A stretch of DNA of 50,778 nucleotides, taken from positions 1 through 50,778 of the forward strand of contig SLKC01000108.1 in the NCBI GenBank assembly GCA_007134775.1, in the 5' to 3' direction. Numbering within the stretch: the first letter of the stretch is position 1; every line of letters starts with the position of its first letter. The notes under the pieces were generated by a model. It was given only the letters and a program-made list of their open reading frames with translations. It made no database searches and was not told the DNA's origin. The position numbers and the translations under genes are program-made. The DNA is from Ectothiorhodospiraceae bacterium (GTDB taxonomy: Bacteria; Pseudomonadota; Gammaproteobacteria; XJ16; Halofilaceae). Of the stretch, positions 184 through 50,172 are shown in pieces.

Positions 184-262
184 GGGGCCTCCAGCGGACA
201 GAGCGGCGCAGTGTAGCGTGCGCCCGGCCACCCGTCAGCGGTCGGCGAGTCCGCCCAGCGGA

Positions 263-1387: not shown

Positions 1388-1401
1388 CGTTACGTTCCCG
1401 T

Positions 1402-1857: not shown

Positions 1858-2123
1858 CGTCGTGGGTGCCCTCCCGGGCAGTGATTCGGGTGCACGGGCC
1901 GTTGCCTGGCAGAGTACACTGGTTACCGGTAGCCGATGATATGATATTTCCGTGCTCCCTTGCCGCCCCCCGCGCCGTCGGGCCGCATATTGAGGGCACA
2001 CCCGTGCGGGCACCTTGAAATTGCCCGGCTGTTGCCTAAAGTTGGAGAGGTTGAAGGCGCCGCGGTGTTCGGAACCGGCGGCGCATTGACCGGTCGAAGA
2101 CGTCAGCGGTGGGAATCGCCCCG

Positions 2124-2441
2124 ATGAGCAACCAGGATCCCCGTCGAGACGAAGACATTGCCGTCGAGACCTCGCAGCCGGAAGTCCGACGGCCGCCGCT
2201 CTACAAGGTGGTGCTGCTGAATGACGATTACACGCCGATGGAGTTCGTGGTCCATGTACTCGAATTTTTCTTCCGCATGACACGGGAACAGGCGACACAG
2301 GTCATGCTGCATGTCCACACGCGCGGCAAGGGCGTGTGCGGCGTCTACAGTGCGGACGTGGCGGAGACGAAGGTAAACCAAGTCAACCAGTATGCACGTG
2401 AGCACCAGCATCCGTTGCTGTGCTCGATGGAAGAGGCCTGA
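2124..2441 (+). CDS. clpS: ATP-dependent Clp protease adaptor ClpS
   Basis: ClpS is the N-recognin adaptor that binds proteins with bulky hydrophobic N-terminal residues and hands them to ClpAP. The 105-residue product has the family core: [20 protein letters not shown], followed by the helical segment with [27 protein letters not shown]. The [10 protein letters not shown] element carries the substrate-binding and ClpA-contact residues. The ATG at 2124 is preferred over the GTG at 2109 because it gives the usual length and disordered acidic N-terminal tail. A GGTGGG tract about 10 bases upstream may serve as the ribosome binding site. clpA starts 16 bases after its stop, so the partner genes form one operon. 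Confidence 0.97.
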
Positions 2442-2457
2442 TGGCCGGGGGTCCACG

Positions 2458-4725
2458 ATGCTGAGCAAAGAGCTCGAGTTTACGCTGAATACCGCCTTCA
2501 AGGAGGCGCGTGAGCGGCGCTACGAATTCATGACGGTCGAGCACCTGCTGCTGGCATTGCTCGACAACCCGACGGCGACCTCCGTGCTGCGCGCTTGCGG
2601 TGCCGACATCGAGAAGCTGCGCGTCGCGCTCGAGCAGTTCGTCGAGGAGAACACGCCGCTGCTCGACCACGAGGACGCGCGTGAGACCCAGCCCACGCTC
2701 GGGTTCCAGCGGGTGCTGCAGCGCGCCGTCTTCCATGTGCAGTCCGCGGGCAGCAAGGAGGTCACCGGGGCCAATGTGCTCGTGGCGATTTTCGGCGAGC
2801 AGGAGTCGCACGCGGTCTATCTGCTGTCGGAGCAGAACATCAGCCGGCTCGATGTCGTCAATTACATCTCCCATGGCATCTCGAAGGTGCCCGGTGAGGA
2901 GAGCGACGAGAACGAGTCGGAGAGCAGCGACAGTGTTAGTGAGCAGGGTGATGGCGAAAAGGCCCCGCTGGAGAATTTCGCCACCAACCTCAACGAGAAG
3001 GCGCTTGCCGGTACGATCGATCCGCTGATCGGGCGCGAGCACGAGGTCGAGCGCACCATCCAGATCCTCTGCCGGCGGCGGAAGAACAACCCGCTGCTCG
3101 TCGGTGAGGCCGGGGTTGGCAAGACCGCGATCGCCGAGGGGCTCGCGAAGAAGATTGTGGACGGCGAGGTGCCCGAAGTGCTCGAGGATGCGCATATCTA
3201 TGCGCTCGATCTCGGTGCGCTCGTCGCCGGCACGAAGTATCGCGGCGATTTCGAGAAGCGGCTCAAGAGCATCCTTGCGCAGCTCAAGAAGGAGAAGCAC
3301 GCCGTCCTGTTCATCGACGAGATCCACACGATCATCGGTGCCGGTGCGGCTTCTGGCGGCGTCATGGACGCTTCGAACCTGATCAAGCCGATGCTGGCGT
3401 CGGGCGAACTCAAGTGCATCGGCTCGACGACCTACCAGGAGTTCCGTGGCATCTTCGAGAAGGACCGCGCCCTGGCGCGCCGTTTCCAGAAGATCGACGT
3501 CAACGAGCCCTCGGTCGAGGAGACCGTGACCATCCTCAAGGGGCTGAAGAGCCGCTTCGAGGAGTTCCACCGGGTGCGTTTCACCCAAAGTGCACTGCGC
3601 TCGGCGGCCGAGCTGTCCGGGCGTTACATCAATGATCGCTACCTGCCGGACAAGGCGATCGATGTCATCGACGAGGCCGGCGCGAGTCGGCGGCTGCTGC
3701 CGGAGAGCAAGCGCAAGAAGACCATCGGCGTCAACGATATCGAATCGGTGATATCGCGTATCGCGCGGATTCCGGCGAAGAATGTTTCGCGGACCGATCT
3801 GTCCGTGCTACGCACGCTCGATCGCGATCTCAAGATGATGGTGTTCGGCCAGGACGAGGCGATCGACACGCTGGCGTCCGCGATCAAGATGTCACGCTCG
3901 GGCCTGGGTACCCAGGATCGTCCGATCGGCAGCTTCCTGTTCGCCGGGCCCACAGGCGTTGGCAAGACCGAGGTCACGCGCCAGTTGTCCTCCGCGCTCG
4001 GCATTGAGCTGCTGCGCTTCGATATGTCTGAGTACATGGAGCGCCACACCGTCTCGCGCCTGATCGGTGCGCCGCCGGGCTATGTCGGATACGACCAGGG
4101 CGGGCTGCTCACCGATGCCGTGCTGCAGAGCCCGCACTCGGTGCTGTTGCTCGACGAGATCGAGAAGGCGCATCCGGACGTGTTCAATCTGCTGCTGCAG
4201 GTGATGGATCACGGCACGCTCACGGACAACAACGGGCGCAAGGCCGATTTCCGCAATGTCATTATTGTGATGACGACCAACGCCGGTGCGGAGGCACTGT
4301 CCAAGCGCTCGATCGGCTTCCACGACGCGGATCACAGCTCCGATGTCATGGGTGTGATCCAGCGGACCTTTACCCCGGAGTTCCGCAATCGCCTGGATGC
4401 GATCATCCAGTTCCGTGGCCTCGACGAGCGCACGGTGGCGAACGTCGTCGACAAGTTCATCATCGAATTGGAAGCGCAGCTCGAACAGAAGCGGGTCTCG
4501 CTGCAGGTCGACGAGCTGGCACGGGCCTGGCTCGCCGAGCACGGTTATGACCGCACCATGGGGGCGCGGCCGATGGCCCGCGTGATCCAGGATAACGTCA
4601 AGAAGCCGCTGGCCGACGAGATCCTCTTCGGCCGTCTGAGCAAGGGCGGGTGCGTGCGCATCACCGTCGATGATGAGGGCCAGCAGCTCAAGCTGGAGGT
4701 GGACGAGCCGGAGGCCGTCCACTGA
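2458..4725 (+). CDS. clpA: Clp protease ATP-binding subunit ClpA
   Basis: ClpA is the hexameric AAA+ unfoldase that feeds substrates into the ClpP peptidase. The 755-residue protein (E. coli 758) has the Clp-N double repeat at about residues 1-145, an acidic linker rich in Glu/Ser, a first AAA module with Walker A GEAGVGKTA and Walker B VLFIDEIH, and a second with GPTGVGKTE and LLLDEIEKAHPDVFN, then the ClpB D2-small C-terminal domain. The start MLSKELEF at 2458 matches the family N-terminus; upstream codons overlap clpS in another frame. The gene faces infA convergently, as in E. coli. clpP itself is not in this window. Confidence 0.97.
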   Translation: MLSKELEFTLNTAFKEARERRYEFMTVEHLLLALLDNPTATSVLRACGADIEKLRVALEQFVEENTPLLDHEDARETQPTLGFQRVLQRAVFHVQSAGSKEVTGANVLVAIFGEQESHAVYLLSEQNISRLDVVNYISHGISKVPGEESDENESESSDSVSEQGDGEKAPLENFATNLNEKALAGTIDPLIGREHEVERTIQILCRRRKNNPLLVGEAGVGKTAIAEGLAKKIVDGEVPEVLEDAHIYALDLGALVAGTKYRGDFEKRLKSILAQLKKEKHAVLFIDEIHTIIGAGAASGGVMDASNLIKPMLASGELKCIGSTTYQEFRGIFEKDRALARRFQKIDVNEPSVEETVTILKGLKSRFEEFHRVRFTQSALRSAAELSGRYINDRYLPDKAIDVIDEAGASRRLLPESKRKKTIGVNDIESVISRIARIPAKNVSRTDLSVLRTLDRDLKMMVFGQDEAIDTLASAIKMSRSGLGTQDRPIGSFLFAGPTGVGKTEVTRQLSSALGIELLRFDMSEYMERHTVSRLIGAPPGYVGYDQGGLLTDAVLQSPHSVLLLDEIEKAHPDVFNLLLQVMDHGTLTDNNGRKADFRNVIIVMTTNAGAEALSKRSIGFHDADHSSDVMGVIQRTFTPEFRNRLDAIIQFRGLDERTVANVVDKFIIELEAQLEQKRVSLQVDELARAWLAEHGYDRTMGARPMARVIQDNVKKPLADEILFGRLSKGGCVRITVDDEGQQLKLEVDEPEAVH

Positions 4726-4859
4726 GGCGCTCGGTTGCAGCCTTCCGTCCGCACTGACTCGTCGGCCGCTGTGGTGGCGTACCGACGGCGAGCGGGCGGC
4801 CTGGCTGCGCCAGCCGACGGTTGAGCGAAGCGGAGGTGCGCTCGCCGCGCAGGCGGCGA

Positions 4860-5078
4860 TCAGCGGGTGCGGTAGACGATCCGGCCCTTGGAAAGGTCGT
4901 AGGGCGTTAGCTGGACGGTGACCTTGTCACCGGTGAGGATGCGGATGTAGTGCTTGCGCATCTTGCCGGAGATGTGGGCTGTCACCACATGCCCGTTCTC
5001 CAGCTCGACGCGGAACATGGTGTTCGGGAGGGTGTCGATGACGGTCCCCTCCATCTCGATGTGATCTTCCTTCGCCAT
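4860..5078 (-). CDS. infA: Translation initiation factor IF-1
   Basis: IF-1 binds the ribosomal A site during initiation. The 72-residue product is a single S1/OB-fold domain beginning [20 protein letters not shown] and ending in [12 protein letters not shown], full length and near-canonical. The ATG at 5076-5078 follows GGAGAG (GAATGGAGAGCCC on the minus strand), a good ribosome binding site. It stands as a single gene, convergent with clpA and downstream of ppsA on the same strand. A sigma-70-like promoter is visible immediately upstream. The 134 bases between clpA and infA (4726-4859) contain no tRNA or other gene that I can see. Confidence 0.98.
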
Positions 5079-5128
5079 GGGCTCTCCATTCGGTGTCTGT
5101 CGCGACGCCGGGGGCGCAACGGGCGCTC

Positions 5129-5156
5129 ATTATGGACAAATCGGCGATTCGTGCAA
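5129..5156 (-). promoter_or_regulatory. Predicted sigma-70 promoter of infA
   Basis: On the minus strand TTGCAC (5151-5156) is followed after 16 bases by CATAAT (5129-5134). These match the -35 and -10 consensus hexamers at four and five of six positions. Transcription would start near 5122, leaving a leader of about 44 bases before the infA ATG. This is a motif-based prediction. Confidence 0.5.
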
Positions 5157-5180
5157 GAGAAAGGGGCTGCTGCGGACGTA

Positions 5181-7589
5181 TCAGCCCCGCCGCCGTCCCT
5201 GTTCCGCCTCCACATCCGCCGTGAGCTGCTTCATGGTGAGCAGGCTGTCGGGATTCAGTGAGATCGACTGGATGCCGTGCTCGACGAGGAAGCGAGTGAT
5301 CTCGGGGAAGTCCGACGGGGCCTGGCCGCAGATGCCGACATACTTGTCGGCGCTGCGGCAGGCGCGGATCGCCCGCTCCATGAGCTCCAGCACGGCGGGG
5401 TCGCGCTCGTCGGCTTCGGTGACCGAGGAGGCATCGCGGTCGATGCCCAGGGTGAGTTGGGTGAGATCGTTCGAGCCGATGGAAAAGCCGTCGAAGTGTG
5501 CCAGAAAGTCATCGGCCCGGATCGCGTTGGTCGGCAGCTCGCACATGAGATAGACGGCCAGGCCGTCGCGACCGCGCTCGAGTCCGTTTTCCGCCAGCAG
5601 ACGCAGGACGTTGTCGCCTTCTTCGGGGGTGCGCACGAACGGAACCATCAGGATCACGTTGTCGAATCCCATGGTCTGGCGCACCTTGTAGAGTGCCTGG
5701 CATTCCAGCGAGAACGCATCGGCGAAGTCCGGGGAGAAGTAGCGCGAGGCGCCACGGAACCCGAGCATGGGGTTCTCCTCCTCGGGCTCATAGGCGCTGC
5801 CGCCGACCATCGAGGCGTACTCGTTCGACTTGAAGTCGGAGAGTCGCACCACCACAGGCCGCGGGTGGAAGGCGGCGGCGATGGTGCCGACGCCCTCGGC
5901 GATACGGTCGATGTAGTACTGACGCGGACTCTGGTAGCCAGCGGTACGCTCGTCGATCTCGGCACGGACCTCGTCGGGGACCTGCTCGTAATCGAGCAGG
6001 GCGCGCGGGTGGATGCCGATGGTGTTGTTGATGATGAACTCCAGGCGCGCCAGGCCGACACCGTCGGCCGGCAGGAAGGAGGCTTCGAAGGCCTGTTCCG
6101 GATTGCCCAGGTTGAGCATCAGCGACGTCTGGGTGTCGGGCAACTGCGTCGCATCGATCTTCTCGGAACGCCAGCGCAGCTGGCCGTCGTAGATGTAGCC
6201 GAGATCGCCTTCGGCACAGGAGATCGTGACCGTGCGTTCGTCGCCGATCCTTTCCGTGGCGTCGCCGCAGCCGACGATCGCGGGGATGCCGAGTTCGCGC
6301 GCGATGATGGCGGCGTGGCAGGTCCGGCCGCCGCGATTCGTGACGATGCCACCGGCGCGCTTCATCACCGGCTCCCAGTCCGGGTCGGTGATGTCCGTGA
6401 TCAGGATCTCGCCCTCTTCGAGGTCGTGCATGTGACTGGCCTCAAGGATGACACGGCTTCGCCCCGCGGCAATCTTGCGCCCCACGCTCTTGCCCATGGC
6501 GAGGACATCACCCTTTTCCTCGAGCCGATAGGTTTCCTGGAAACGGATATCCTCGACGCGGCTCTGCACTGTTTCAGGCCGCGCCTGGACGATGAACAGC
6601 TCGCCACTCTCGCCATCCCGGGCCCATTCGATGTCCATCGGTGTGGGAAAACCGTTGCGCTTGGAGTAGTGCTCCTCGATGAGGGTCGCGTAACGCGCGA
6701 GGGTGAGCACCTCCTCCTCGCTGATCGAGAAGCGCCGGCGGTCGACGGGCTTGACCTCGACATTGCGCGTGGATACGCCGCGGACATTCTCCTCGGCGTA
6801 GATCATCTTCTGTTCCTTACTACCGATGTGGCGCTGCAGGATCGGTGCATAGCCCGCCATCAACTTGCCCTTGTGGACGTAGAACTCGTCCGGGTTGACC
6901 GATCCCTGGACGACGTTCTCGCCCAGGCCGTAGGCGGAGGTGATGAAGACCACGTCGGGGAAGCCGCTCTCGGTGTCGAGCGTGAACATGACGCCGGCTG
7001 CGGACTGGTCCGAGCGCACCATCTTCTGCACGACGATCGAGAGCGCGACATCCATGTGATCGAAGCCGCGGTGTACGCGATAGGCGATCGCACGGTCGGT
7101 AAACAGCGAGGAGAAGACCCACTTGCAAGTCGCGATGAGATGCCGGGTCCCGCGCACGTTGAGATAGCTTTCCTGCTGGCCCGCGAAGGAGGCGTCGGGC
7201 AGGTCCTCGGCCGTGGCGGAGCTACGCACCGCGACATCGGGATTGTGCCCGTACTGCTCGCCGAGTTCACGATAGGCGGCGATGATCTCTTCGCGCATTG
7301 GCGTTGGCATATCGCCGTGCGTGATGCCCGCGCGGATCATCCCGCCGACATCGCGGAGCTGGCGCGTGTCGTTCGGGTCGAGGCTGGCCAGTAGTTCGCG
7401 GATCTCCTCGTCGAGTCCGTTGAATTCAAGGAAGTGGCGATAGGCGTCCGCGGTCACGGCGAAACCGTTCGGGACTTGCACTCCGAGACGCCCCAGCTCG
7501 CGGTACATCTCGCCCAGGGAGGCATTCTTGCCCCCGACGATGCCAACGTCGTCGTAGCCGATCTCGTCGAATCGCTTGATGTAGTCCAT
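5181..7589 (-). CDS. ppsA: Phosphoenolpyruvate synthase PpsA
   Basis: PpsA converts pyruvate and ATP to phosphoenolpyruvate, AMP and phosphate, a gluconeogenic step in the cytoplasm. The 802-residue protein has the N-terminal ATP-grasp-like PEP/pyruvate-binding domain (starting MDYIKRFDEIGYDDVGIVGGKNASLGEM, with AVRSSATAEDLPDASFAGQQ near residue 125), the swivelling phosphohistidine domain with GGRTCHAAI (catalytic His at residue 425), and the C-terminal PEP-utilising TIM barrel ending in ICGQAPSD...LNPDSLL. Length is close to E. coli PpsA (792). The regulatory kinase/phosphatase PpsR, often divergent from ppsA, is not adjacent here. Confidence 0.97.
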   Translation of the reverse strand: MDYIKRFDEIGYDDVGIVGGKNASLGEMYRELGRLGVQVPNGFAVTADAYRHFLEFNGLDEEIRELLASLDPNDTRQLRDVGGMIRAGITHGDMPTPMREEIIAAYRELGEQYGHNPDVAVRSSATAEDLPDASFAGQQESYLNVRGTRHLIATCKWVFSSLFTDRAIAYRVHRGFDHMDVALSIVVQKMVRSDQSAAGVMFTLDTESGFPDVVFITSAYGLGENVVQGSVNPDEFYVHKGKLMAGYAPILQRHIGSKEQKMIYAEENVRGVSTRNVEVKPVDRRRFSISEEEVLTLARYATLIEEHYSKRNGFPTPMDIEWARDGESGELFIVQARPETVQSRVEDIRFQETYRLEEKGDVLAMGKSVGRKIAAGRSRVILEASHMHDLEEGEILITDITDPDWEPVMKRAGGIVTNRGGRTCHAAIIARELGIPAIVGCGDATERIGDERTVTISCAEGDLGYIYDGQLRWRSEKIDATQLPDTQTSLMLNLGNPEQAFEASFLPADGVGLARLEFIINNTIGIHPRALLDYEQVPDEVRAEIDERTAGYQSPRQYYIDRIAEGVGTIAAAFHPRPVVVRLSDFKSNEYASMVGGSAYEPEEENPMLGFRGASRYFSPDFADAFSLECQALYKVRQTMGFDNVILMVPFVRTPEEGDNVLRLLAENGLERGRDGLAVYLMCELPTNAIRADDFLAHFDGFSIGSNDLTQLTLGIDRDASSVTEADERDPAVLELMERAIRACRSADKYVGICGQAPSDFPEITRFLVEHGIQSISLNPDSLLTMKQLTADVEAEQGRRRG

Positions 7590-7655
7590 GGTCTGCAGGA
7601 TCAGTCTCTGTGGCGGGTAAAAATAACGGATTCACTGCGCCGTTCGCGCCGGCGC

Positions 7656-7661
7656 ACTATA
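7656..7661 (-). promoter_or_regulatory. Possible -10 element upstream of ppsA
   Basis: TATAGT on the minus strand matches the -10 consensus at five of six positions. It lies in a short A+T-richer patch about 65 bases upstream of the ppsA start. No convincing -35 hexamer is seen at the right spacing, so this is weak. Confidence 0.3.
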
Positions 7662-7792
7662 CCATCGACCTTGGTGCGGGCACGACCTCGCACCCGATCG
7701 CTGCCGAGGCCGGATTCGCCCGGCAAAACGGCACGCACGGGCGAAGCAGTGCCGGCGTGGAGGCGTGGGCCAGGGCGCTCGGGCGTCCATGG

Positions 7793-8311
7793 TCACGCTC
7801 CAGGTTTGCGCTCCTCGTCGCGGGGGCTTTCCTCCTCCTCGGGTTGGGCTGTGGCAGCAGAGGAGGGTGAGGCCTCGACGTCCGCGCGGTCGACGGTGTC
7901 GGCATCCGCCTGGCTCGTGGTTGCCGCATGCTCCGCGCTGTCGCCGTCTGTGGCATCCGCATTGCCCGCGCCACCGGCGCTGACTCGCTCAGCGACCAGG
8001 CTGGGATCAGCCTGTTGCAGCAGGGCATTGGTGCGTCCTTCCGACAGTCCCAGGTTCTGTGCCGTGCGCGCAAATTGCTGGAAGAAGTTGTGGTAGTCGG
8101 TCGCGAGCTGACGGAACATCTGCGCGCTCTCTTCGAAGTGGCGATCGACCTCGCGGCGGACGGCGTCGGCGTCGGCCTGTGCGGCATTGCGCTCGCGCTC
8201 CATCGCCGCGAGTTGACGCTGACGTGGCGCCGTCAGCCGTCCGCCGACGAAACCGGCGAGGAGAGCCACCACGAGTCCGCCTCCGAAAAGCATCCAGTAC
8301 TCCGCTGTCAT
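7793..8311 (-). CDS. zapG: YhcB/ZapG family (DUF1043) inner-membrane protein
   Basis: The 172-residue product has one N-terminal transmembrane segment (about residues 5-22: WMLFGGGLVVALLAGFVGGR), then a charged coiled-coil stretch rich in Ala, Glu and Arg. The family signature follows: DRHFEESAQMFRQLATDYHNFFQQFARTAQNLG. The C-terminal third is an acidic, low-complexity Ala/Asp/Glu/Ser tail. ZapG (YhcB) of E. coli is an envelope-biogenesis and division-associated membrane protein, and the same role is inferred here. The start at 8311 is chosen because GGAGGT lies about 7 bases upstream and because the transmembrane segment then begins near the N-terminus; an alternative start at 8335 adds eight residues. 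Confidence 0.9.
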   Translation of the reverse strand: MTAEYWMLFGGGLVVALLAGFVGGRLTAPRQRQLAAMERERNAAQADADAVRREVDRHFEESAQMFRQLATDYHNFFQQFARTAQNLGLSEGRTNALLQQADPSLVAERVSAGGAGNADATDGDSAEHAATTSQADADTVDRADVEASPSSAATAQPEEEESPRDEERKPGA

Positions 8312-8652
8312 TGAGCTACCTCCTGAGCGTGCCAATTTTCGGCTGTTGTGCGTCTACCATGTCGCCGCAGCCGCGATGCTGGTTGGTGCGGTCAAGGGCG
8401 GATCACGGAATCCAGTCCTTCATTACCGAATACAATAAGCCCTGCAGGACGACGGGTCGAGCACGATCTGTCGGCGGCGCTGACTCTGCGCGCGCACGCT
8501 TGCGGTCGGGCGGGCGTGGCGTGGCGGTGCACGCGAGTGACCTGGGTGGTGCAGCCGTGTGATCTCTGCCGACGGAGTTTCGCCACTGGCCGCTGCCGTG
8601 TAGGCTGAGCCGCCCATCGAGCCGAGATCGGAGTACGCAGCACGCGGTCGTC
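8312..8652. other. Intergenic gap with no recognisable gene
   Basis: These 341 bases between the divergent zapG and DUF1249 genes contain only short, low-quality frames in all six readings. No tRNA-like fold or strong terminator is apparent. It presumably contains the promoters of the two divergent genes, but no clear -35/-10 pair was found. Confidence 0.5.
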
Positions 8653-9141
8653 ATGCAACAGGTACGCACTCGTCCCCGTTTCCTCTCAACAGCCGCCCAT
8701 TGTGACCTGGGGGGGTTGATGGCGCTGTATGAGGAAAACTATATCCGGCTGCGGACGCTGCTGCCGAGCCTTGAGCGGTTGCCGCGACAGGCGGTATCCC
8801 ACGTCCCCGGCTGCGTCGACCTCCATGTCGAAATCCGTGAGCGGGCACGTTATACGACCACGCTGAACATGACCTGCCGCTTCACCCACGACGGCTGCGT
8901 GCGCCACGAGCCGGATCTCCTCGTCCGGATCTGCCACGATGCCCGCACGGCTGAGGTGCTCGAGCTGCGGGGCCGGCGCCGGGGGGATGGTCATACGGAT
9001 GCCCGACGCACACTGGCTCGTCGCTGGCGGTGCAACCGTTTCCTCTACAAATGGCTGAGTTACTGTCTGCGCCGCGGCCACCGGTTCCCGCCCGATCAAC
9101 AGCCTTCCACCTGTTCCGAGGAGGCATTGCCGCCCGCCTGA
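8653..9141 (+). CDS. DUF1249 (YqiB-like) protein
   Basis: This 162-residue protein resembles E. coli YqiB. The block LMALYEENYIRLRTLLPSLE aligns with YqiB's MMRLCEMNFSQLRRLLP. Further on, RARYTTTLNMT, LLVRICHDARTAEVLEL and the C-terminal RCNRFLYKWLSYCLRRGHRF correspond to ESTRYTTLV, VRLYHDAMVAEV and NQFLADWLRYCLAHG. YqiB function is not well defined; in E. coli it sits beside nudF and cpdA. The start at 8653 keeps the N-terminal residues conserved in the family; MALYEEN at 8719 would cut into the domain. The 3' end overlaps the convergent transglutaminase gene by 46 bases. Family membership is confident, biochemical role unknown. Confidence 0.88.
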   Translation: MQQVRTRPRFLSTAAHCDLGGLMALYEENYIRLRTLLPSLERLPRQAVSHVPGCVDLHVEIRERARYTTTLNMTCRFTHDGCVRHEPDLLVRICHDARTAEVLELRGRRRGDGHTDARRTLARRWRCNRFLYKWLSYCLRRGHRFPPDQQPSTCSEEALPPA

Positions 9142-11087
9142 GCGCGGCGTGGGCGGAATCGCCGCACGGCGCGTTCGAATGCGACCCGCGTGGTCGGCGC
9201 CGGGTCGGGCTGATAGCGTAGTCGGTCGTGCAACGCGGCCAGCTCCTGCAGCGCCGGAGCGAGGTCGGGACGCCGGTGCGCGACGCGGCGCAGGAAATCG
9301 TGTACGCCTTCATGGGGCACGCGACGATGGCCGAGGCGGGCCAGGCGCCGCTCGACGCGGCGCCAGTGGCGCTCGATGCGATCGCGGGGGCGGTCCGGTG
9401 GCCGGCTGAATAGCCAGAGGCCGGCGACCAACAGCCCAGCAGTGGCGATGCTGAGGACGCCGAGCGCATAGCGGCCCAGATCTTCCAAACCCACCCGCTC
9501 GAGCAGCCGCTCCTGCAGATCGGGGCCATAGCCGAGCACCAACCGGTTCCAGGCGTGGTTCACGTTGTCCCATGCAAGCGCCACGCTGCGGCGCAAGGAG
9601 TCGTCGCGGCGCGCGATGTCGGAGAGCATATCCTCGGTCCCCGGGATGCTGTCGAGTCCGAGGTCGATGCGATCCGGCGCCACGGTCGCCGTCGGGTCGA
9701 CCCGCACCCAACCCTGTTGCGGCAGCCAGACCTCCGCCCAGGCGTGGGCGTCGGACTGGCGCACGATGTGGTAGTCGCCGGCGTCCTCCATCCCGAGGTA
9801 GCCGGTGACGACGCGGGCGGGGATGTCCGCCGCGCGCATGAGTACCACGAAGGCACTGGCGAAGTGCTCGCAAAAGCCCGCGCGGGTGTCGAAGAGGAAA
9901 TCGTCGACCGGGTCGTCGCGGAGTTGTTGTGGTGTGAGCGTGTATTCGAAGTCGCTGTCTTCGAACCATTCGAGGGCCAACTCGACGACGGCGAGATCGT
10001 CGTCGCCATCTTGTCCGCGGAGTTCGTCGGCCAGCTCGCGCGCCTGCGGTGCGGCGTCGTCCGGCAGCTCGAGCGCCTCTACGCGGCGGGTGGCGGGCAG
10101 CTCGGGCTCGAGGCGGTAATCGCGGTAGGAGCGTAGGTCGAAGCGCTGGTTCCTGCGTACGGGATCAGCGGTCAGGAGCTGGCGCCCCGGGTCGAAGCCG
10201 GTGTCGCTCGGGGTGTCATCGCCATGCACGTCGAGGGTGAACAGCCAGCGCTGATCATGGGACTCGAGCGTGATCGTGTACTCAAGCGGGGCGCCGGGGT
10301 CGGCGATCGCGGGTGCCTCGCCATTGTCCCAGTCCTCACTGGAGGACTCGCGCCAGGTCTCGCCGTCGTAGTCGGTGAATACCGGCCCACGCCAGTACTG
10401 CTCTTGCGGGTCGGGGATCTCGTCGTCGAACTCCACACGGAAAGCGACAGCGTGCGACATCGCGAGCTCGCTTACACCTCCAGGAGACATGCTGTCACTC
10501 AGCCCCGTGGCGGCCCCGCTTCCCTCGTGCAGGCTCCAGAGTGGGCCCGGGATGCGAGGAAAGAGCACGAAGAGCACGAGCATAATCGGCACGGCCTGTA
10601 CCAGCAGACCGCCGGCCACGGCGAAGCGCTCCCGCGGCGGTGTTGTCCGCGGCTCGGCGAGCGTGATCAGCGCGGTGGTGGTGAGCAGCAGCGAGCCCGC
10701 GACGTAGACGGCCATCCCGATCTGTTCGCTGTAGAGGAAGATGGCGATCGCGAGGAAATAGGTGAGACAGGCGAGCAGACCGCCGTCGCGGGTAGAACGG
10801 CTCTCGAGGAACTTCAGCGCCACCATGGCGGTGAAAAAGGCACCGCCGGCATCCGGACCCGATATCGCGCGGAATTCCACGACCACACCGGCCAAGGCGG
10901 CCAGGGCCAGCGGGATCAGCAACCAGCGCCCCGGTGGCCGAGCGAGGGCGAGGCGTAGCAGCAGTGCCCCCGGCACAAGCACCGACACCCACAGCGGGAG
11001 GTGCATGGCGTGGGGCAGCGCCGCGACGAGGAGCGCGGTCCCGAGCCAGCGGAAGACCGTCTCGTCCGGTGCAGGCGCAGCGGTCAT
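9096..11087 (-). CDS. TgpA-type transglutaminase-like membrane protein (DUF3488/DUF4129)
   Basis: This 663-residue inner-membrane protein has about six hydrophobic segments in the first 190 residues (DUF3488), a periplasmic transglutaminase-like domain and a further transmembrane segment near residue 565, then a cytoplasmic DUF4129-like tail. The transglutaminase triad is visible: Cys in DTRAGFCEHFASAFV, His in SDAHAWAEVWLP and Asp in WVRVDPTA. The nearest described relative is Pseudomonas TgpA, a protein-glutamine gamma-glutamyltransferase. It is the last gene of a MoxR-DUF58-TgpA operon, with its ATG overlapping the DUF58 stop by 4 bases. MoxR/DUF58/transglutaminase sets are widespread, and the substrate is generally unknown. 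Confidence 0.92.
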   Translation of the reverse strand: MTAAPAPDETVFRWLGTALLVAALPHAMHLPLWVSVLVPGALLLRLALARPPGRWLLIPLALAALAGVVVEFRAISGPDAGGAFFTAMVALKFLESRSTRDGGLLACLTYFLAIAIFLYSEQIGMAVYVAGSLLLTTTALITLAEPRTTPPRERFAVAGGLLVQAVPIMLVLFVLFPRIPGPLWSLHEGSGAATGLSDSMSPGGVSELAMSHAVAFRVEFDDEIPDPQEQYWRGPVFTDYDGETWRESSSEDWDNGEAPAIADPGAPLEYTITLESHDQRWLFTLDVHGDDTPSDTGFDPGRQLLTADPVRRNQRFDLRSYRDYRLEPELPATRRVEALELPDDAAPQARELADELRGQDGDDDLAVVELALEWFEDSDFEYTLTPQQLRDDPVDDFLFDTRAGFCEHFASAFVVLMRAADIPARVVTGYLGMEDAGDYHIVRQSDAHAWAEVWLPQQGWVRVDPTATVAPDRIDLGLDSIPGTEDMLSDIARRDDSLRRSVALAWDNVNHAWNRLVLGYGPDLQERLLERVGLEDLGRYALGVLSIATAGLLVAGLWLFSRPPDRPRDRIERHWRRVERRLARLGHRRVPHEGVHDFLRRVAHRRPDLAPALQELAALHDRLRYQPDPAPTTRVAFERAVRRFRPRRAQAGGNASSEQVEGC

Positions 11088-29679: not shown

Positions 29680-30072
29680 TCAGCTAGAGGCCTTGCTGAT
29701 TTCGCCAACCCGATCGGCGGTCTTGCGCGCCTCGATGAAGACGCGACCGATATTCGCCTTCGTGTCCGTGGAGACGGCGAGGACCTGGTCCGAGCCGGCC
29801 TGAACCAGCAGCATTCGCCCCTTTTCGCCCTCGACGAGTACCTGGCGCAGCGTCCCACTGCGGATTTCCGCCGCCGCCTGCTCGGCGAGGGCCAGCAGCG
29901 TCGCGGACATGGCGCCGAAACGATCTTCGTCGATCTCGGCTGTAAGGGCGCTCGCCTGCGGCAGGCCGTCGCTGGTGATGACCGCTACCGCCTGGATGCC
30001 CGTCACTGCCGAGTGCAGTTGGCGGATGATGCGCCGCAACGACCGCGCGAGTTCTTCGTTCGTTTTCATCAT
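29680..30072 (-). CDS. Roadblock/LC7 domain protein (MglB-like)
   Basis: The 130-residue protein is a single roadblock/LC7 domain: LRRIIRQLHSAVTGIQAVAVITSDGLPQASAL, then DEDRFGAMSATLLALAEQAAAEIRSGTLRQVLVEGEKGRMLLVQAGSDQVLAVSTD, then a C-terminal helix FIEARKTADRVGEI. Bacterial roadblock proteins such as MglB dimerise and act as GAPs or scaffolds for Ras-like GTPases; a COG2229 GTPase is encoded three genes upstream. It is the last gene of the five-gene leftward operon, 104 bases after the other roadblock-like gene. Tandem ATGs at 30070-30072 and 30067-30069 are equivalent start choices. Family call is confident; partnership with the GTPase is inferred from the operon. Confidence 0.9.
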   Translation of the reverse strand: MMKTNEELARSLRRIIRQLHSAVTGIQAVAVITSDGLPQASALTAEIDEDRFGAMSATLLALAEQAAAEIRSGTLRQVLVEGEKGRMLLVQAGSDQVLAVSTDTKANIGRVFIEARKTADRVGEISKASS

Positions 30073-30109
30073 TGCTGTAGCTGTGGTTTTCCTGCTGCGC
30101 GCACGACCG

Positions 30110-30143
30110 GCCCGCGACGAGCATGGCGACGACCGTCGCGGGC
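30110..30143 (-). repeat. Perfect 10-bp inverted repeat between the two roadblock genes
   Basis: GCCCGCGACG (30110-30119) and CGTCGCGGGC (30134-30143) are exact reverse complements separated by 14 bases. In the leftward transcript this forms a strong GC hairpin in the 104-base spacer, without a following U tract. It could be an mRNA-stability or processing element that sets different levels of the two roadblock proteins (inference). Confidence 0.6.
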
Positions 30144-30176
30144 AGGATCGGGATCGCGCCGTTATCCGGGCCGCCT

Positions 30177-30590
30177 TTAGGCGGCCGCCCCTTCGACGTC
30201 GGGCATGGCCGCGCGCGCCTTGGACAGAGCCATGCCCAGATTCGCTGAAATCCGGCAGACGAAGCCGGCGACATGCTGTGGATTCGTTCGGCTGCGGATG
30301 AAGAGGTGGATCAGGTTGTCACTATTGACGATCATTTCATTGAAATAATGATCGCCGTCATCCTTCACGCCACGGGCGTTCTTGAACATCTTCTCGATGG
30401 TCACGACATTCGACCCCTGAAACATTTCCGCAGTCGCCGCAGCCAGCAGGTCGAGCACTTCACTGGGATGCGAATCCACCGTCCGTATCCCGAGCAGCAT
30501 GCCACTATCGAGATCGACGTAGCCGGCTGCCAGGCATTCCGGCACCTTCGAAACCGCACGCTGCAGTGCATTTTCCAATTCGTCTGCCAT
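30177..30590 (-). CDS. Divergent roadblock-like protein
   Basis: The 137-residue protein starts MADELENALQRAVSKVPECLAAGYVDLDSGMLLGI, a roadblock-like pattern (helix, then strand with Y-V-D-x-x-S-G). It continues LDLLAAATAEMFQGSNVVTIEKMFKNARG, NEMIVNSDNLIHLFIRSRTNPQHVAGFVC and a terminal helix LGMALSKARAAMPDVE. It is less canonical than its neighbour but has the same alternation of two central strands flanked by helices. I recall similar proteins in proteobacterial GTPase/roadblock clusters. Two roadblock-type proteins could form hetero- or homodimers on the GTPase. AAAGGAGG lies 12 bases before ATG 30590. It is separated from the ABC-phosphatase gene by 59 bases. Confidence 0.75.
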   Translation of the reverse strand: MADELENALQRAVSKVPECLAAGYVDLDSGMLLGIRTVDSHPSEVLDLLAAATAEMFQGSNVVTIEKMFKNARGVKDDGDHYFNEMIVNSDNLIHLFIRSRTNPQHVAGFVCRISANLGMALSKARAAMPDVEGAAA

Positions 30591-30649
30591 GCTTCTCTCT
30601 CGCCTCCTTTGGGTTCAGTTTGAGATGGAGTACAGATTGCCTGGTTGTG

Positions 30650-32047
30650 TCAGCAACGCTCGCACACATCCCCCCTCGGTGTGCGCAATCGCGCCGTTTG
30701 ATGTGCCTGCGGCTGATCCGTGATCGGGGTGCTGCCGTTGCGTCGGCGCACGACCTCTGCAAAGCGCTCGAGGAACCGGACCTGTTCGTCGGACTGCACC
30801 CAGCGCGCATCGATGTGCCGGACCGCTTCGAGTGCATCCAAGGGGTCGCTTCCCTCCCAAATCAAGTAGCTGGCGAGAATCGCCCCGGTCCGGCCCTTGC
30901 CGGCGCGGCAATGCACCGCGACCACTTCGCCGGCCGTGAGTTGTTCCTCGATCCAGGAACAAAGCCCCCAGGCCTGGGTGACACTCGGTGCGCACATGTC
31001 GGGCACGGGAGACCGATGCACGCGCAAGCCGCGTGCCGCCAGCGCGGCGATATCCGGCTCGACCTGGGTGAGTGATACCAGCACCGTTACGCCCATGCGC
31101 ACGAGCGCATCGGTGTCATATTCGACCGGATGGAACACGCCCGGCATTGGCGTCCCCGCGAGACGGCCGGCGTGCAACCAGAGGAAACCCGAAGGCCCGC
31201 GCGATTCTACCGGAACGGGCGGGGCAGCCCGTACAGGGACGCCGAAAGGGGTCGGGGCGTCGTCGGCCAGCGTCATCGGATCCGCGTCCGGTGACGGTAC
31301 CTGACAGGTTCCCGTGCGGACGAACCGGCGGCCGAGTTCGCTCTCCGGCTCATCGAGCAGGCAGCGGGTTGCCCGACTCTCAACGATGCAACCACCGGCG
31401 AGCAATGCGGCCTGCCCACCCAGTTGGTAGGCGTGCCTCTGATTGTGTACGACGACCAGCACCGCGCGTCGTTCGGCTTCGTACTGGATCTGCTGCAGAA
31501 TGAACTCCGCTTCGGCATCCCCGATGTGGCTGGTGGGCTCGTCGAGGCAGATCAGCGGCGGATCAGCCGCTATCAGGCGTATCAGGGAGATCATGCGCTG
31601 CTCGGCCAGCGAGCGGTCGATGACTGTGTCGTCGAGGTAGGCCCGGTACTCGGGGATACCGTGATCGATGCAGAGCTGGGCCGCGAGATCGCGCTGGTCT
31701 CGCGGCGACAGGTGCCGGCGATCGGGGTGATTGTGAACCAGATTCTGGGCGACGGTGGACATCACCAGGCGAGCGTTCTGAGCGATCAACGCGGGACGCG
31801 GGCCGTCGTCGAGTTCCGCGCCTGCGTAGATGGCTCTCCCCCAGCTCGCAAAGGCCGGATTGGCGTCATTGAAGCCCGCCAGACTCCGGAGCAGCGTGGA
31901 TTTCCCCGTGCTGACCGGGCCCATGAGGACGAATGGCCCGGTGGGGGGGACCTCCAGGTCGACCGCCGCAAGGATTACCCGATCGCCAAAGCGGACGCCG
32001 TATTGGTCCAGCGACAGGATCGACAGGATGCGGGCCGGATCGACCAT
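30650..32047 (-). CDS. ABC ATPase domain fused to a dual-specificity/tyrosine phosphatase domain
   Basis: Residues 1-245 of 465 form an ABC-type ATPase with Walker A GPVSTGKS (43-50), Walker B LICLDEPTS with catalytic E170 and an H-loop H201 in VVVHNQRHA. The signature motif is degenerate (DRSLAEQR at 144-151 instead of LSGGQ). No transmembrane segment or permease is present in the operon. Residues about 285-440 form a cysteine phosphatase with the P-loop HCRAGKGRTG (C380, R386) and probable general acid D350 in PVPDMCAPS, resembling CDC14/dual-specificity enzymes. So one polypeptide combines an ATP-driven switch with a phosphoprotein phosphatase. It starts 3 bases after the GTPase stop. Substrate unknown; regulation of the GTPase or roadblock partners is inferred. 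Confidence 0.88.
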   Translation of the reverse strand: MVDPARILSILSLDQYGVRFGDRVILAAVDLEVPPTGPFVLMGPVSTGKSTLLRSLAGFNDANPAFASWGRAIYAGAELDDGPRPALIAQNARLVMSTVAQNLVHNHPDRRHLSPRDQRDLAAQLCIDHGIPEYRAYLDDTVIDRSLAEQRMISLIRLIAADPPLICLDEPTSHIGDAEAEFILQQIQYEAERRAVLVVVHNQRHAYQLGGQAALLAGGCIVESRATRCLLDEPESELGRRFVRTGTCQVPSPDADPMTLADDAPTPFGVPVRAAPPVPVESRGPSGFLWLHAGRLAGTPMPGVFHPVEYDTDALVRMGVTVLVSLTQVEPDIAALAARGLRVHRSPVPDMCAPSVTQAWGLCSWIEEQLTAGEVVAVHCRAGKGRTGAILASYLIWEGSDPLDALEAVRHIDARWVQSDEQVRFLERFAEVVRRRNGSTPITDQPQAHQTARLRTPRGDVCERC

Positions 32048-32050
32048 GAC

Positions 32051-32596
32051 TCACCGACCTTTCGGGTGCTGCACCAGCGTGAGCAGCGTCGTGACCGCCT
32101 GGCGCACGTCATCGGCCGCGCGTGTATCCATGGCCATCACGGGCGCGTTGACTCCCAGCGACCGGACATGCCGGCGGAAGGGGTCGATACCTGCGTTCCC
32201 TCCTTGATCAAGGCGGGTGATGCCGATGACCGCTTCATGAGTGCGCATGAACCCCTTGAACGCCGTGGTGAACCGTTCCAGTTCCTCGAACACGGTTTCT
32301 GAGCGGGCCGAGGCGAGCATGACCAGACCGATCGCGCCGCGCGTCAGTATCGGCAGCATGAAACCGAAACGCGCCTGTCCGGGGGTGCCGTAGAGATGAA
32401 CAACCTCGTTGTCATCGAGGCGAATCTGGCCATAGTCCATCGCAACCGTGGTGCGCTCCTTGAGCTTGGCCGTCTCATCGCTTGCGCGCGCCTCGGTGCT
32501 CACAACGGGGATGTCCGAGAGTGCGCCGATTGCGGTCGTCTTGCCGGCACCGGGTGGTCCTGAGAACAGAATCTTGTTGTCGACCTGGGCGCGCAT
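32051..32596 (-). CDS. COG2229-type small Ras-like GTPase
   Basis: This 181-residue cytoplasmic GTPase has the P-loop GPPGAGKTT at residues 13-21, the switch I region with TTVAMDYGQIRL, and switch II YGTPGQARFGFM, where the usual DTPGQ Asp is Tyr. The base-recognition motif NKxD appears as TRLD, so nucleotide specificity may differ. These two deviations are common in the COG2229 branch found with roadblock proteins in conservon-like clusters, related to MglA. The 30-residue in-frame upstream extension is rejected: the ATG at 32596 lies 1 base after the stop of the preceding gene, giving tight translational coupling. It probably cycles under control of the two roadblock proteins encoded downstream. 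Confidence 0.9.
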   Translation of the reverse strand: MRAQVDNKILFSGPPGAGKTTAIGALSDIPVVSTEARASDETAKLKERTTVAMDYGQIRLDDNEVVHLYGTPGQARFGFMLPILTRGAIGLVMLASARSETVFEELERFTTAFKGFMRTHEAVIGITRLDQGGNAGIDPFRRHVRSLGVNAPVMAMDTRAADDVRQAVTTLLTLVQHPKGR

Positions 32597-32597
32597 G

Positions 32598-33248
32598 TCA
32601 GCTACCACGCAGTCTGCGCAGCAGGGACGTGATGAGCGATGAACCGCCGTCAGGTTCGACTTCCAGGCCGGACTCGGGCTCGGCATCGGAGCGGTTCACC
32701 ACCCGGATGAGACCGGCACACCAGGCCGCACTCAGGAACTGCTGGACCTCCGTGCGCCCGGCGCCGGACAGTCTTGAGGCGATCGAGATCGATGTCGGGC
32801 GCCGGCGGAACAGCACGGCCAGGCGCACGCCTTGCGCACCCATGGGCACACGGGTGAGATTCGGCCACTCGGTCAGCTCGGTGACATCCGTTGGCGCGAG
32901 TTCATCGATCAGCCGGCCACGGGAGGCAGCGAAGCCGACGGTCCAGAGCAGGTCTTCCAGGCCACCCCATGCCGCCGCATCGAGCCGGAGCGTATCATCC
33001 GCGCGTAACCGACGGATGCGATAGGCCCCCGGTTCATCCGCACACAGGGGGAGCAGGTCGGCTCGGTCGGTATGAAAACGCCGTGCCTGGGACTGCACGA
33101 AAATGTGCCCGGGCGGTGTGGAGTGTTCGATGGCGATGTCCTTGCCACGCACCATGGCGCCGCGGATCGCGCTATGGAGGCATCCGCTGGCTGCGAATTC
33201 CGTAGGGTCGTTGTTGGATCCCGATAACGGGATAGCGCGCGTTTGCAT
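32598..33248 (-). CDS. Hypothetical protein, first gene of the roadblock/GTPase operon
   Basis: The 216-residue protein starts MQTRAIPLSGSNNDP after AGGAGGT, a near-perfect ribosome binding site. The N-terminal half has no motif I recognise. The C-terminal half (about residues 100-185: GLEDLLWTVGFAASRGRLIDEL, then LFRRRPTSISIASRLSGAGRTEVQQFLSAAWCAGLIRVVNR) looks like two helical bundles ending in a winged-helix-like unit, similar in character to DUF4388/PatA-type effector regions that accompany GTPases. No signal peptide or membrane segment is seen. It is tightly coupled to the GTPase gene (1-base gap). Role as GTPase effector or sensor is inference only. Confidence 0.75.
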   Translation of the reverse strand: MQTRAIPLSGSNNDPTEFAASGCLHSAIRGAMVRGKDIAIEHSTPPGHIFVQSQARRFHTDRADLLPLCADEPGAYRIRRLRADDTLRLDAAAWGGLEDLLWTVGFAASRGRLIDELAPTDVTELTEWPNLTRVPMGAQGVRLAVLFRRRPTSISIASRLSGAGRTEVQQFLSAAWCAGLIRVVNRSDAEPESGLEVEPDGGSSLITSLLRRLRGS

Positions 33249-33296: not shown

Positions 33297-33316
33297 GCGG
33301 TGATGGTCATCACCGC
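33297..33316. repeat. Perfect 8-bp inverted repeat in the operon leader
   Basis: GCGGTGAT (33297-33304) and ATCACCGC (33309-33316) flank GGTC and are exact reverse complements. The element lies 49 bases upstream of the first start codon of the operon and adjacent to a weaker TATACC hexamer (33317-33322, minus strand). It could be an operator or a leader-RNA hairpin. Confidence 0.55.
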
Positions 33317-33439
33317 GGTATAAAGTTCGCGAATCCGGTGTTCTCGCGGGAGAAGTCTTCCGTCGGTAACCTGCCGCTTTCCAGGCCCGCAACTCGCTCC
33401 GTGACGTCGGTCGGCAGGCGCTTCTTATCGTTTGGGGGA

Positions 33440-33445
33440 ATTATA
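33440..33445 (-). promoter_or_regulatory. Perfect TATAAT -10 element of the roadblock/GTPase operon
   Basis: TATAAT on the minus strand, in an A+T-rich island (33425-33500) that stands out in this GC-rich window. With the hexamer at -12 to -7 the predicted start is 33433, giving a leader of about 185 bases before ATG 33248. The absence of a good -35 fits an activator-dependent promoter. Confidence 0.6.
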
Positions 33446-33463
33446 CTATGAATTGTTATGTGT

Positions 33464-33485
33464 GGAATTGATCTAGATCAATTCC
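33464..33485. promoter_or_regulatory. FNR/ANR/DNR-type binding site in a 22-bp perfect palindrome
   Basis: The core TTGATCTAGATCAA (33468-33481) is an exact match to the FNR consensus TTGAT-N4-ATCAA and sits inside a 22-bp perfect palindrome. Its centre (between 33474 and 33475) falls at exactly -41.5 relative to the start predicted from the TATAAT at 33440-33445, the position used at class II FNR-activated promoters. This supports leftward transcription of the roadblock/GTPase operon under low oxygen or nitric oxide. The orientation is not toward the rightward FAD-oxidoreductase gene, where no -10 is seen at suitable spacing. Confidence 0.75.
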
Positions 33486-33919
33486 GTCATTGACGAATTG
33501 GGCCCGGGTGGAACTGTACGAGCCGGGCCGCCGAGGTGGCAAGACCTTTTGGGCCAGCTACACGTCCGTCGTAGCGGGTAAGTGCAATCCCTCCCGAATT
33601 GAGGTGCTGTCCTTTCCAAAGTCGCGCTGAGGCACTAGGCTTACGCGCGTCTTCGGCATTCCACCCGGGACCGGGCCAACATGGCAGTCGATTTCACAGC
33701 GGTCACGCCGATCCGTGAGGCCTCCTGCGCCTCGATGTCGGCGGTTCATCGCGATGATGCGCCGCCCAGCAACGCCCTGCTCCAACGGAGCCACAGCAAG
33801 GTGGTGGGCGTTCCCGTGGACAGCGTGTTCACGCCCCACCAGGCCATCGCGCAGCAGTGCGACGACGAGTGCCCGGTGCGCCGGCTTGCCCATCGTCGAA
33901 TGGGCAGCGGGTGGGCGCG
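33486..33919. other. Intergenic stretch with no recognisable gene
   Basis: About 430 bases lie between the FNR-type site and the FAD oxidoreductase start. Short frames exist on both strands (for example 33558-33932 minus and 33681-33923 plus), but neither has a recognisable motif, convincing start signal or typical composition. It may hold the promoter of the rightward gene or a remnant; nothing specific is seen. Confidence 0.5.
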
Positions 33920-47848: not shown

Positions 47849-49131
47849 GGGCCGCTCCGGCGCTGGGCGTCCAGTTCCTCGAGCAGGCGCAGCGCGGCCG
47901 CTTCGAGATGCGCGGCAACGGCTTCGTCGTCGGGCGGTGGTGCCGCGAGATCGGCGTAGGGGCGGCGCTCGATCACGCCGGTCATGCGTTCCCGGGCGGC
48001 TGCGATCAGGCGCCGCCGCTGCGCTGAGTCACCGCCGCGCAGCACGAGCAGGCGGCGCGCAAGCAGGGCGACTGGGTCGTGGCCGCGTGCGGTCGCTTCG
48101 AGGTCGATGGTGGGCTGGACCTGCAGTCGCCAGTCGTGGATGAAGTAGTCGATGCCGTCTTGCGGGTAGAGGGTCGCGGTGAGATCGGCTTCCGTCAGTG
48201 TCTGCTCGAGCGCCCGGCGCAGGTGGGTGCGACCGGTAAGCAGGAGGCGGCAGCCGACCGCCACGGGTCGGTAGGGCTGGCTTGTCAGGTCCGCGTGCAA
48301 TGCGTCGAGTGCGCGTGTGATCCGGCCATGCACATCCTCGGCGGCCTGCAGGTCGTCGACGCTGATGGGCAGCGACTCCCAGCGTAACGGGGCCAGCGGC
48401 CGGTGCTCGACGCCCAGGGTGCCGTCGCCGGCCACGGTAACCAGCCAGGGGCCGCGCGCCCCTGCCTCGCCCGGATCGAGACCGGTCAGCGAGCCGAGAT
48501 AGCCGATCGGGCGCTCGCGATCGAGATCGTCGGGCTGATGGATGTGGCCCAGCAGCCAGGCATCGACCGGGGCGCCCCGAAGCTCGTGGCTGCGCACCGG
48601 TGCATGGCCGCTGCCCGGTTGATCGCGATCGCAGTGGAGCAGGCCGATCGTTGTCGTGGCGTCGGTTCGTGCGGGGAGGGCCTGCGCCAGTGGGCTGAAC
48701 TCGACACGAGGGGCGGGGAAGGACCAGCCGACGATGCGTACGCGCTGCCCGCTTGCGGCCACGACCTCCGCCGTCTCCCATACTCCGCCCTGGCCCAGCA
48801 GGCGGAAGTCCGGGATCTCTGCGGCAAGCCGCGGCAGGACCTCGCCATCGTGGTTGCCGGAGACCCCGATGACCGCGATGCCGCGGCCGGCGAGGCGCTC
48901 GACGCCGGCCCGCAGATCGACGAAGGCCTCGTGGAAATCGTCGGCCTGCTCAACGACATCGCCGGCGAGCAGCACCGCATCGACGGCCTGTTCGCTGGCG
49001 TGCTCGATCGCCCGCTGCCAGGCCATGGCCGGTCCGGGGACCCGGGCTCCCGTGCTGGTCGTCAGGGGCTCGGGCAGCCGTGAAGGCCTACGGCCGAGGT
49101 GGACATCGCCGATCGCGAGCAGGCGGATCAT
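47845..49131 (-). CDS. Mre11/SbcD-like metallophosphoesterase (YhaO type)
   Basis: The 428-residue predicted DNA nuclease has the calcineurin-like phosphoesterase motifs: IGDVHLG (I), LLAGDVVEQ (II), GVSGNHD (III), GLLHCD and LGHIHQP (IV/V). A C-terminal domain of about 180 residues would dock on the partner ATPase. Partner proteins with this organisation cut DNA ends in an ATP-regulated manner. The gene is followed directly by the SMC-like ATPase gene (ATG overlaps the stop by 4 bases), so translation is coupled. I chose ATG 49131 (MIRLLAIGDVHLG) because the metal-binding motif then starts at residue 7; GTG 49158 adds nine residues with no family support. Confidence 0.9.
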   Translation of the reverse strand: MIRLLAIGDVHLGRRPSRLPEPLTTSTGARVPGPAMAWQRAIEHASEQAVDAVLLAGDVVEQADDFHEAFVDLRAGVERLAGRGIAVIGVSGNHDGEVLPRLAAEIPDFRLLGQGGVWETAEVVAASGQRVRIVGWSFPAPRVEFSPLAQALPARTDATTTIGLLHCDRDQPGSGHAPVRSHELRGAPVDAWLLGHIHQPDDLDRERPIGYLGSLTGLDPGEAGARGPWLVTVAGDGTLGVEHRPLAPLRWESLPISVDDLQAAEDVHGRITRALDALHADLTSQPYRPVAVGCRLLLTGRTHLRRALEQTLTEADLTATLYPQDGIDYFIHDWRLQVQPTIDLEATARGHDPVALLARRLLVLRGGDSAQRRRLIAAARERMTGVIERRPYADLAAPPPDDEAVAAHLEAAALRLLEELDAQRRSGP

Positions 49132-49191
49132 CGTGGTTGGAGTGTTCGAGGACGGCACATCCCTGTGCCGTTGGCCCTCGTCAGTGTTGCG

Positions 49192-49974
49192 CTATCGCGA
49201 GGAGGACTTCTTCTTGGAGCGCCGCTTCTTCTTGCCGATCTGATCGACTTCCTTGAGGAGCTTGCGCTCGGTCTGGGCGGCGGCCTTGGCCATCGCCTTC
49301 TCCTTGGCTTCGCTGAGCTTGCGCAACGCCTTTTCGCGCTTCTCCGCGAGCTTGAGCTCTGCCATCGTCTCCTTGATCTCATCCTTGAGTTCGCGGATCT
49401 GTGAACGCAGCTGTTCGTTCACCTCCGTAGCAGCCGAGGTGGCCTTCTTCTTGCTGCCAGCCTTCTTCTTCGCGGTGGCCTTCTTGGTGGTGGCCTTCTT
49501 CTTGGTCGCAGCCGTTGCCTTCTTGGTACTGGCCTTCTTCTTCGAAGCAGCCGTGGTGACGGTCTTCTTCTTCGATGTGGCCTTCTTCTTCGTGGCAGCG
49601 GTCTTCTTCGCCGCGGCCTTCTTCTTCGAAGTCGCGCTGGCGGTCTTCTTCGCAGAAGCCTTCTTCGCCGCGGTCTTTTTTGTACTCGCCTTTTTCTTGC
49701 TCGCGGTCGCGGGAGCTGTGGGCGTTGCGGTCGTTCTATCGGTCGATGCTGGCCCGGTCTCCGTCCTTGCTGCCGGCGATGGCGTTGGAGATGCAGGAGC
49801 CGTTGGCGGTTCGCGCCGGGCTTCGCCTTCCGAGCCGGATTGGCCGGCCGGCGTGGGCTGGGATTCCGTTGACGGTCGCGGCATGATGCCGGGTGTTCCG
49901 GGTTGGCGTGAAGCCGGCGTGGATCCGGACTGTTCAGGATTGTCCGACTTTGGATCCTGTTTTTCGTCTTCCAT
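49192..49974 (-). CDS. Lys/Ala-rich histone H1-like protein
   Basis: The 260-residue protein has three parts. An acidic and Pro/Ser/Thr-rich head covers residues 1-105. A long Lys/Ala/Thr low-complexity stretch follows (about 110-200, repeats such as ATSKKKA, KKTAAKK and KKATTKKATAKKKAGSKKKA). The tail is a coiled coil with EVNEQLRSQIRELKDEIKETMAELKLAEKREKALRKLSEAKEKAMAKAA, ending in a basic KKKRRSKKKSSSR. This resembles the AlgP/histone-H1-like proteins of Pseudomonas and relatives, which bind DNA through the KTK-type repeats. The coiled coil suggests dimerisation. Repeats may vary in number between strains. The ATG at 49974 is preferred over upstream starts that add 28 unlike residues. Confidence 0.75.
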   Translation of the reverse strand: MEDEKQDPKSDNPEQSGSTPASRQPGTPGIMPRPSTESQPTPAGQSGSEGEARREPPTAPASPTPSPAARTETGPASTDRTTATPTAPATASKKKASTKKTAAKKASAKKTASATSKKKAAAKKTAATKKKATSKKKTVTTAASKKKASTKKATAATKKKATTKKATAKKKAGSKKKATSAATEVNEQLRSQIRELKDEIKETMAELKLAEKREKALRKLSEAKEKAMAKAAAQTERKLLKEVDQIGKKKRRSKKKSSSR

Positions 49975-50172
49975 CGATGGCCCCCATCGGATCATTGAAC
50001 GGTGCGCAACGAGCGTGATGCGCCGACTGCCCGATTGTGGATAAGAGCACAGCGGCAATCAACTACCGAATCGATGTGCAAGTCATTCGCGCCTGGGCAC
50101 GCGTGAACTCTGAAACCGAAACGGTGGCGAAGCGGTTGATAACACTACGAAAAAGAGAAACCCATCGAGGCC

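Follow-up and report, generated by a model that had tools for sequence, protein, structure and literature searches.

The palindrome, its probable promoter and the downstream genes

The window, by which we mean the whole 50,778-nt stretch of DNA that was analysed, carries a symmetric box between a minus-strand gene cluster and a divergent plus-strand gene for an FAD oxidase. On the side of the cluster we find the following features:

33464-33485, no strand assigned: box of FNR/ANR/DNR type, a perfect 22-bp palindrome with 11-bp arms, GGAATTGATCTAGATCAATTCC
33468-33481, inside the palindrome: box core TTGATCTAGATCAA, a perfect TTGAT-N4-ATCAA
33445-33440, minus: perfect -10 hexamer TATAAT, 22 nt downstream of the box
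33433, minus: putative transcription start (+1)
33297-33316, minus: second perfect palindrome, GCGGTGATGACCATCACCGC, in the leader; a CRP-type core (GTGA-N6-TCAC) or an RNA hairpin
33260-33253, minus: ribosome-binding site AGGAGGTG, preceding the ATG at 33248
32598-33248, minus: P0001, 216 aa
32051-32596, minus: P0002, small GTPase with motifs GPPGAGKTT, YGTPGQ and TRLD
30650-32047, minus: P0003, fusion of an ABC-type ATPase and a dual-specificity phosphatase whose HCRAGKGR (HCX5R) is intact
30177-30590, minus: P0004, roadblock/LC7 fold, the most conserved member (62-71% identity)
29680-30072, minus: P0005, roadblock/LC7 protein (Robl_LC7, PF03259, 2.3e-16)

The minus-strand sequence of the box and -10 region is GACGGAATTGATCTAGATCAATTCCACACATAACAATTCATAGTATAATTCCCCC. 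Because the start at 33433 is placed from the TATAAT, the position of the box depends on it; with +1 there, its centre falls at -41.5. Among the positions from which FNR activates in E. coli, a class II one near -41.5 is the most frequent (PMC7349173). The promoter has a good -10 and lacks a proper -35, and a scan for consensus sigma-70 promoters called none at this TATAAT. The perfect core occurs once in the window, and shuffled windows gave 0.22 matches even with one mismatch permitted. The surrounding island (33425-33505) is 62% A+T; the window as a whole has about 67% G+C. Elsewhere in the window, positions 49001-50000 show a strong A/T skew (-0.44 to -0.55) and a G+C content below that of the neighbouring sequence.

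An earlier sequence-only reading of this DNA had placed a TTGAT-N4-ATCAA site, within a 22-bp palindrome, at -41.5 from a minus-strand TATAAT, and had judged this geometry in an A+T island improbable by chance. Our analysis bears out both points: the coordinates and the 22-nt spacer are as described, and when the island was shuffled with dinucleotides preserved, the core appeared in 17 of 60,000 shuffles, TATAAT appeared anywhere in about 10%, and the core with TATAAT at a spacer of 21-23 appeared in none of the 60,000.

The ATG at 33248 is likely, from its sequence context, to be the first start codon of the operon, leaving a leader of 185 nt from the putative +1; since this is long, an alternative start site is possible. 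The leader has no match in Rfam, and its folding (z -1.1) is not exceptional. We rejected its palindrome as a class II CRP-type site because no -10 lies at the matching position; GGTGA-N6-TCACC occurs 15 times in the window's genome. The first three genes are separated by only 1-3 nt. The gaps before P0004 and P0005 are wider, 59 and 104 nt, and it is therefore less certain that these two are co-transcribed with the rest.

The small GTPase is thus encoded in one gene cluster with two roadblock proteins. Its sole Pfam match is PF03029. Two paralogues lie elsewhere in the window's genome, L029 (contig C162) and L031 (contig C121), with 42% and 36% identity, and no FNR box, perfect or with one mismatch, lies near either of them. 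The 216-aa protein belongs to a family without a Pfam name and matches only the C-terminal part of a protein of 384-400 aa in most relatives; relative to those homologues, its N-terminal domain is missing. Although Pfam has no match to P0004, roadblock structures match the AlphaFold model of the protein (pLDDT 75), with 3kye best (5e-7) and MglC (7ct3) and MglB (6hjm) next.

The same box and spacer in the genome and its congeners

Scanning the window's genome (3.06 Mb, 99.6% complete) for the perfect TTGAT-N4-ATCAA returned ten matches at nine distinct sites, the window's included; L004 and L006 are a single site at two contig ends and were counted once. The expected number is 0.19 from base composition and 0.41 from a first-order model built on the window, a roughly 20- to 50-fold over-representation. 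Two congeners hold 13 and 9 perfect boxes; the reversed pattern, used as a control, occurs in them 0 and 1 times. In the window's genome, seven of the eight other boxes adjoin identifiable genes, and one (L007) has no clear target gene. The seven are:

aa3-type oxidase subunit II (coxB)
cytochrome bd oxidase subunit I (cydA/cioA)
CCP/MauG-family di-haem peroxidase; MsrP lies across the box from it
NirK-like copper enzyme, scoring under the curated NirK cut-off
globin
universal stress protein (uspA)
protein with two ferredoxin motifs (read from sequence)

The congener boxes precede hemN (with moeA on the opposite side), ccoN, cioA, narK, an azurin-like gene and a ferredoxin reductase (fpr), names that we read from the translations. 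Before the NarK-like transporter, both congeners carry two perfect boxes 39 bp apart (L051/L053 in G002; L058/L060 in G001). Reported Pseudomonas Anr targets include hemN, cioA, azu, ccoN, narK1 and ccpR (PMC6588701). Within one genome, then, the window operon and known FNR/ANR regulon genes have this box in common.

The spacing recurs as well. For every distance from a box, the hexamer found there was given a score from an approximate -10 matrix for E. coli. In a set of 27 flanks, most of which face genes and one of which is the window's, the mean score peaks at exactly 22 nt, and the window's hexamer is the best-scoring -10 of them all. With the window excluded and both sides of every other site taken (48 flanks), a spacer of 22 came top of 50 distances (z 3.3), with a score that was reached in 0 of 20,000 random draws. 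The 22-nt spacer, and hence the -41.5 position, is the rule at the other boxes of this genome and of the two congeners.

Candidate regulators and competing explanations

A protein encoded on contig C132 has matches to FNR structures of Aliivibrio fischeri at 2.8e-58 and scores 222 bits against the NCBIfam Fnr model, just under the cut-off of 228. Aligned to A. fischeri FNR, it has the N-terminal CX2CX5C (three Cys), the central Cys, the reading motif ETVSR and the GDEQ loop. By these features it is a true FNR/ANR, an FNR-family activator able to read the box. Contig C39 encodes a Crp/Fnr member with the motif ETLCR and without the cysteine cluster; one P. putida FNR in which Cys replaces Ser retained binding to the FF site (PMC4505428). 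Contig C123 encodes two further members, with the motifs ETFSR and ENLSR; the DNR structure of P. aeruginosa matches one of the two proteins at 7e-11. The genome therefore holds at least four regulators with an E-x-x-S/C-R motif, the C132 protein among them. L106 (C123), positions 1-9312, has the appearance of a cluster for nitric oxide and denitrification control, with NnrS-, NsrR- and NarK-like genes (names read from sequence) beside the two DNR-type regulators.

We favor, with a probability of almost nine in ten, the reading of this site as a class II activator promoter, of FNR/ANR/DNR type, that drives the minus-strand operon. Falling oxygen would lead a dimeric activator of the FNR family to bind the palindrome at -41.5 and help sigma-70 RNA polymerase to use the TATAAT; the most likely candidate is the FNR/ANR of C132 with its four cysteines. 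Such activation would drive expression of the 216-aa protein, the small GTPase, the ABC-ATPase/phosphatase fusion and the two roadblock proteins. Because several regulators share the reading motif, and because DNR-like proteins and NnrS/NsrR-like genes are present, oxygen and nitric oxide are inseparable as the signal. A genuine box read mainly by a DNR/NNR-type nitric oxide sensor is accordingly the alternative that we take most seriously, albeit as the less probable one: the DNR-like proteins adjoin the nitric oxide genes on C123, and Anr and Dnr boxes are indistinguishable in P. aeruginosa (PMC6588701). Oxygen is nevertheless favored, because the boxed genes of the genus (oxidases, hemN, uspA, azurin) are for the most part not denitrification genes but FNR/ANR targets of the oxygen type, and the genome encodes a full FNR/ANR.

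Other explanations fare worse. The regulator might repress, for example by occluding a basal promoter, much as Anr is reported to repress Pseudomonas cioA despite a box there (PMC6588701); but a box at -41.5 with a good -10 and no proper -35 is activator geometry (PMC7349173), and the consensus scan found no promoter at this -10, which makes repression unlikely. That the box and TATAAT are a non-functional chance product of the A+T-rich island is more improbable still. Such an island yields a TATAAT in about 10% of shuffles, and the box does not accompany the operon in relatives (see below), but the joint arrangement never arose in the shuffles and perfect boxes are over-represented and located at respiratory genes. 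We give least credence to the idea that the palindrome serves the divergent oxidase gene. Its symmetry and its place between divergent genes would allow this, but the plus strand is GC-rich at the class II -10 position, the oxidase start lies about 380-450 bp from the box, and no perfect box lies near the orthologous oxidase (65% identity) in either congener.

Relatives, globin neighbors and known systems

The phosphatase fusion is rare, being found in 4 of 369 genomes of the class, with the window's own counted. Neither congener has the GTPase or the fusion, and the oxidase that lies beside the operon here has different neighbors in them. The operon (29680-33248) has a slightly lower G+C content than its flanks, is missing in both congeners and is patchy in the class, a distribution that could come from horizontal gain or repeated loss.

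We read the operon in eight distinct other holders, including Thiobacillus sp. UBA2186, betaproteobacterium SCN2 and Thiohalophilus thiocyanatoxydans. The non-coding stretch before it contained a perfect or one-mismatch TTGAT-N4-ATCAA in none of the eight, and a search there for TTGAY/RTCAA variants gave none that was convincing. A weak candidate in L078, TTGACCTTAAACAA, was rejected because it has no -10 at the right spacing. The conservation of box and spacer for which the sequence-only reading had proposed looking, in relatives that keep the operon, was therefore not seen in these holders, whose proteins are 40-50% identical to the window's. That reading had named loss of the palindrome in relatives with the operon as a refutation; the loss is seen only at this distance, at which promoters are expected to have turned over. 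The box may be either specific to the window's lineage or too fast-changing to be visible. A further check it proposed, a genome scan for an FNR/ANR/DNR regulator and its site, was productive, yielding the C132 and DNR-like C123 proteins and the nine boxes. Its broader claim, that FNR, ANR or DNR links the operon to oxygen or nitric oxide, thus has good support across the genome, from the regulator, the boxes at respiratory genes and the spacer, but none from conservation of the box with the operon.

What does accompany the operon is a globin of bacterial type, beside it in all eight other holders and fused to a ferredoxin reductase in five:

L032, 6829-8421: globin beside the operon
L033, 6803-8359: globin beside the operon
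L034, 5762-6397: globin beside the operon
L073, 3402-4937: globin beside the operon
L074, 3680-5263: globin beside the operon
L076, 4018-5571: globin beside the operon
L077, 7227-7790: globin beside the operon
L078, 4478-5041: globin beside the operon

These neighbors tie the module to oxygen or nitric oxide independently of the FNR box, so that the box in the window and the globins in eight relatives are two independent lines leading to one physiology. The window's genome yielded no match to the globin part of these partners. We suggest, very tentatively, that the GTPase/roadblock/ABC-ATPase-phosphatase module is an oxygen- or nitric oxide-responsive switch whose gas input is a globin or ferredoxin-reductase-globin in most holders; in the window's species, where the partner globin is missing, the FNR-type promoter would provide the input instead.

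The promoter is ordinary in kind, and the module downstream is the interesting part. What is new is the assignment, from sequence, of a GTPase/roadblock/phosphatase module to a putative FNR-type regulon. The box would group these genes with the respiratory genes of the bacterium, and the promoter offers a handle, through a low-oxygen or nitric oxide cue, on an unstudied bacterial signaling module; our literature search for the module found nothing specific.

Comparison with known systems separates the familiar from the unusual. Close to the window promoter stand the class II FNR promoters of E. coli and a synthetic reporter, FF(-41.5). The window core is identical in every letter to the FF site of PMC4505428, and, as in these systems, the box would be centred at -41.5 with a TATAAT -10 and no need of a -35. 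Unlike them, the window has a longer, perfect palindrome of 22 bp, a 185-nt leader, unusual downstream genes and a GC-rich host. The box is also identical to that of the Pseudomonas Anr/Dnr regulon, whose targets hemN, cioA, azurin, ccoN, narK and a di-haem peroxidase recur in the window's genus; a roadblock/GTPase operon is not among the targets named in the available part of that source (PMC6588701). The module itself resembles the MglA/MglB and actinobacterial conservon systems (PMC4316618), in which a small GTPase is encoded with roadblock proteins, and the predicted fold of P0004 matches MglB and MglC structures. It goes beyond those systems in having an ABC-ATPase/phosphatase fusion and, among relatives, a globin as well.
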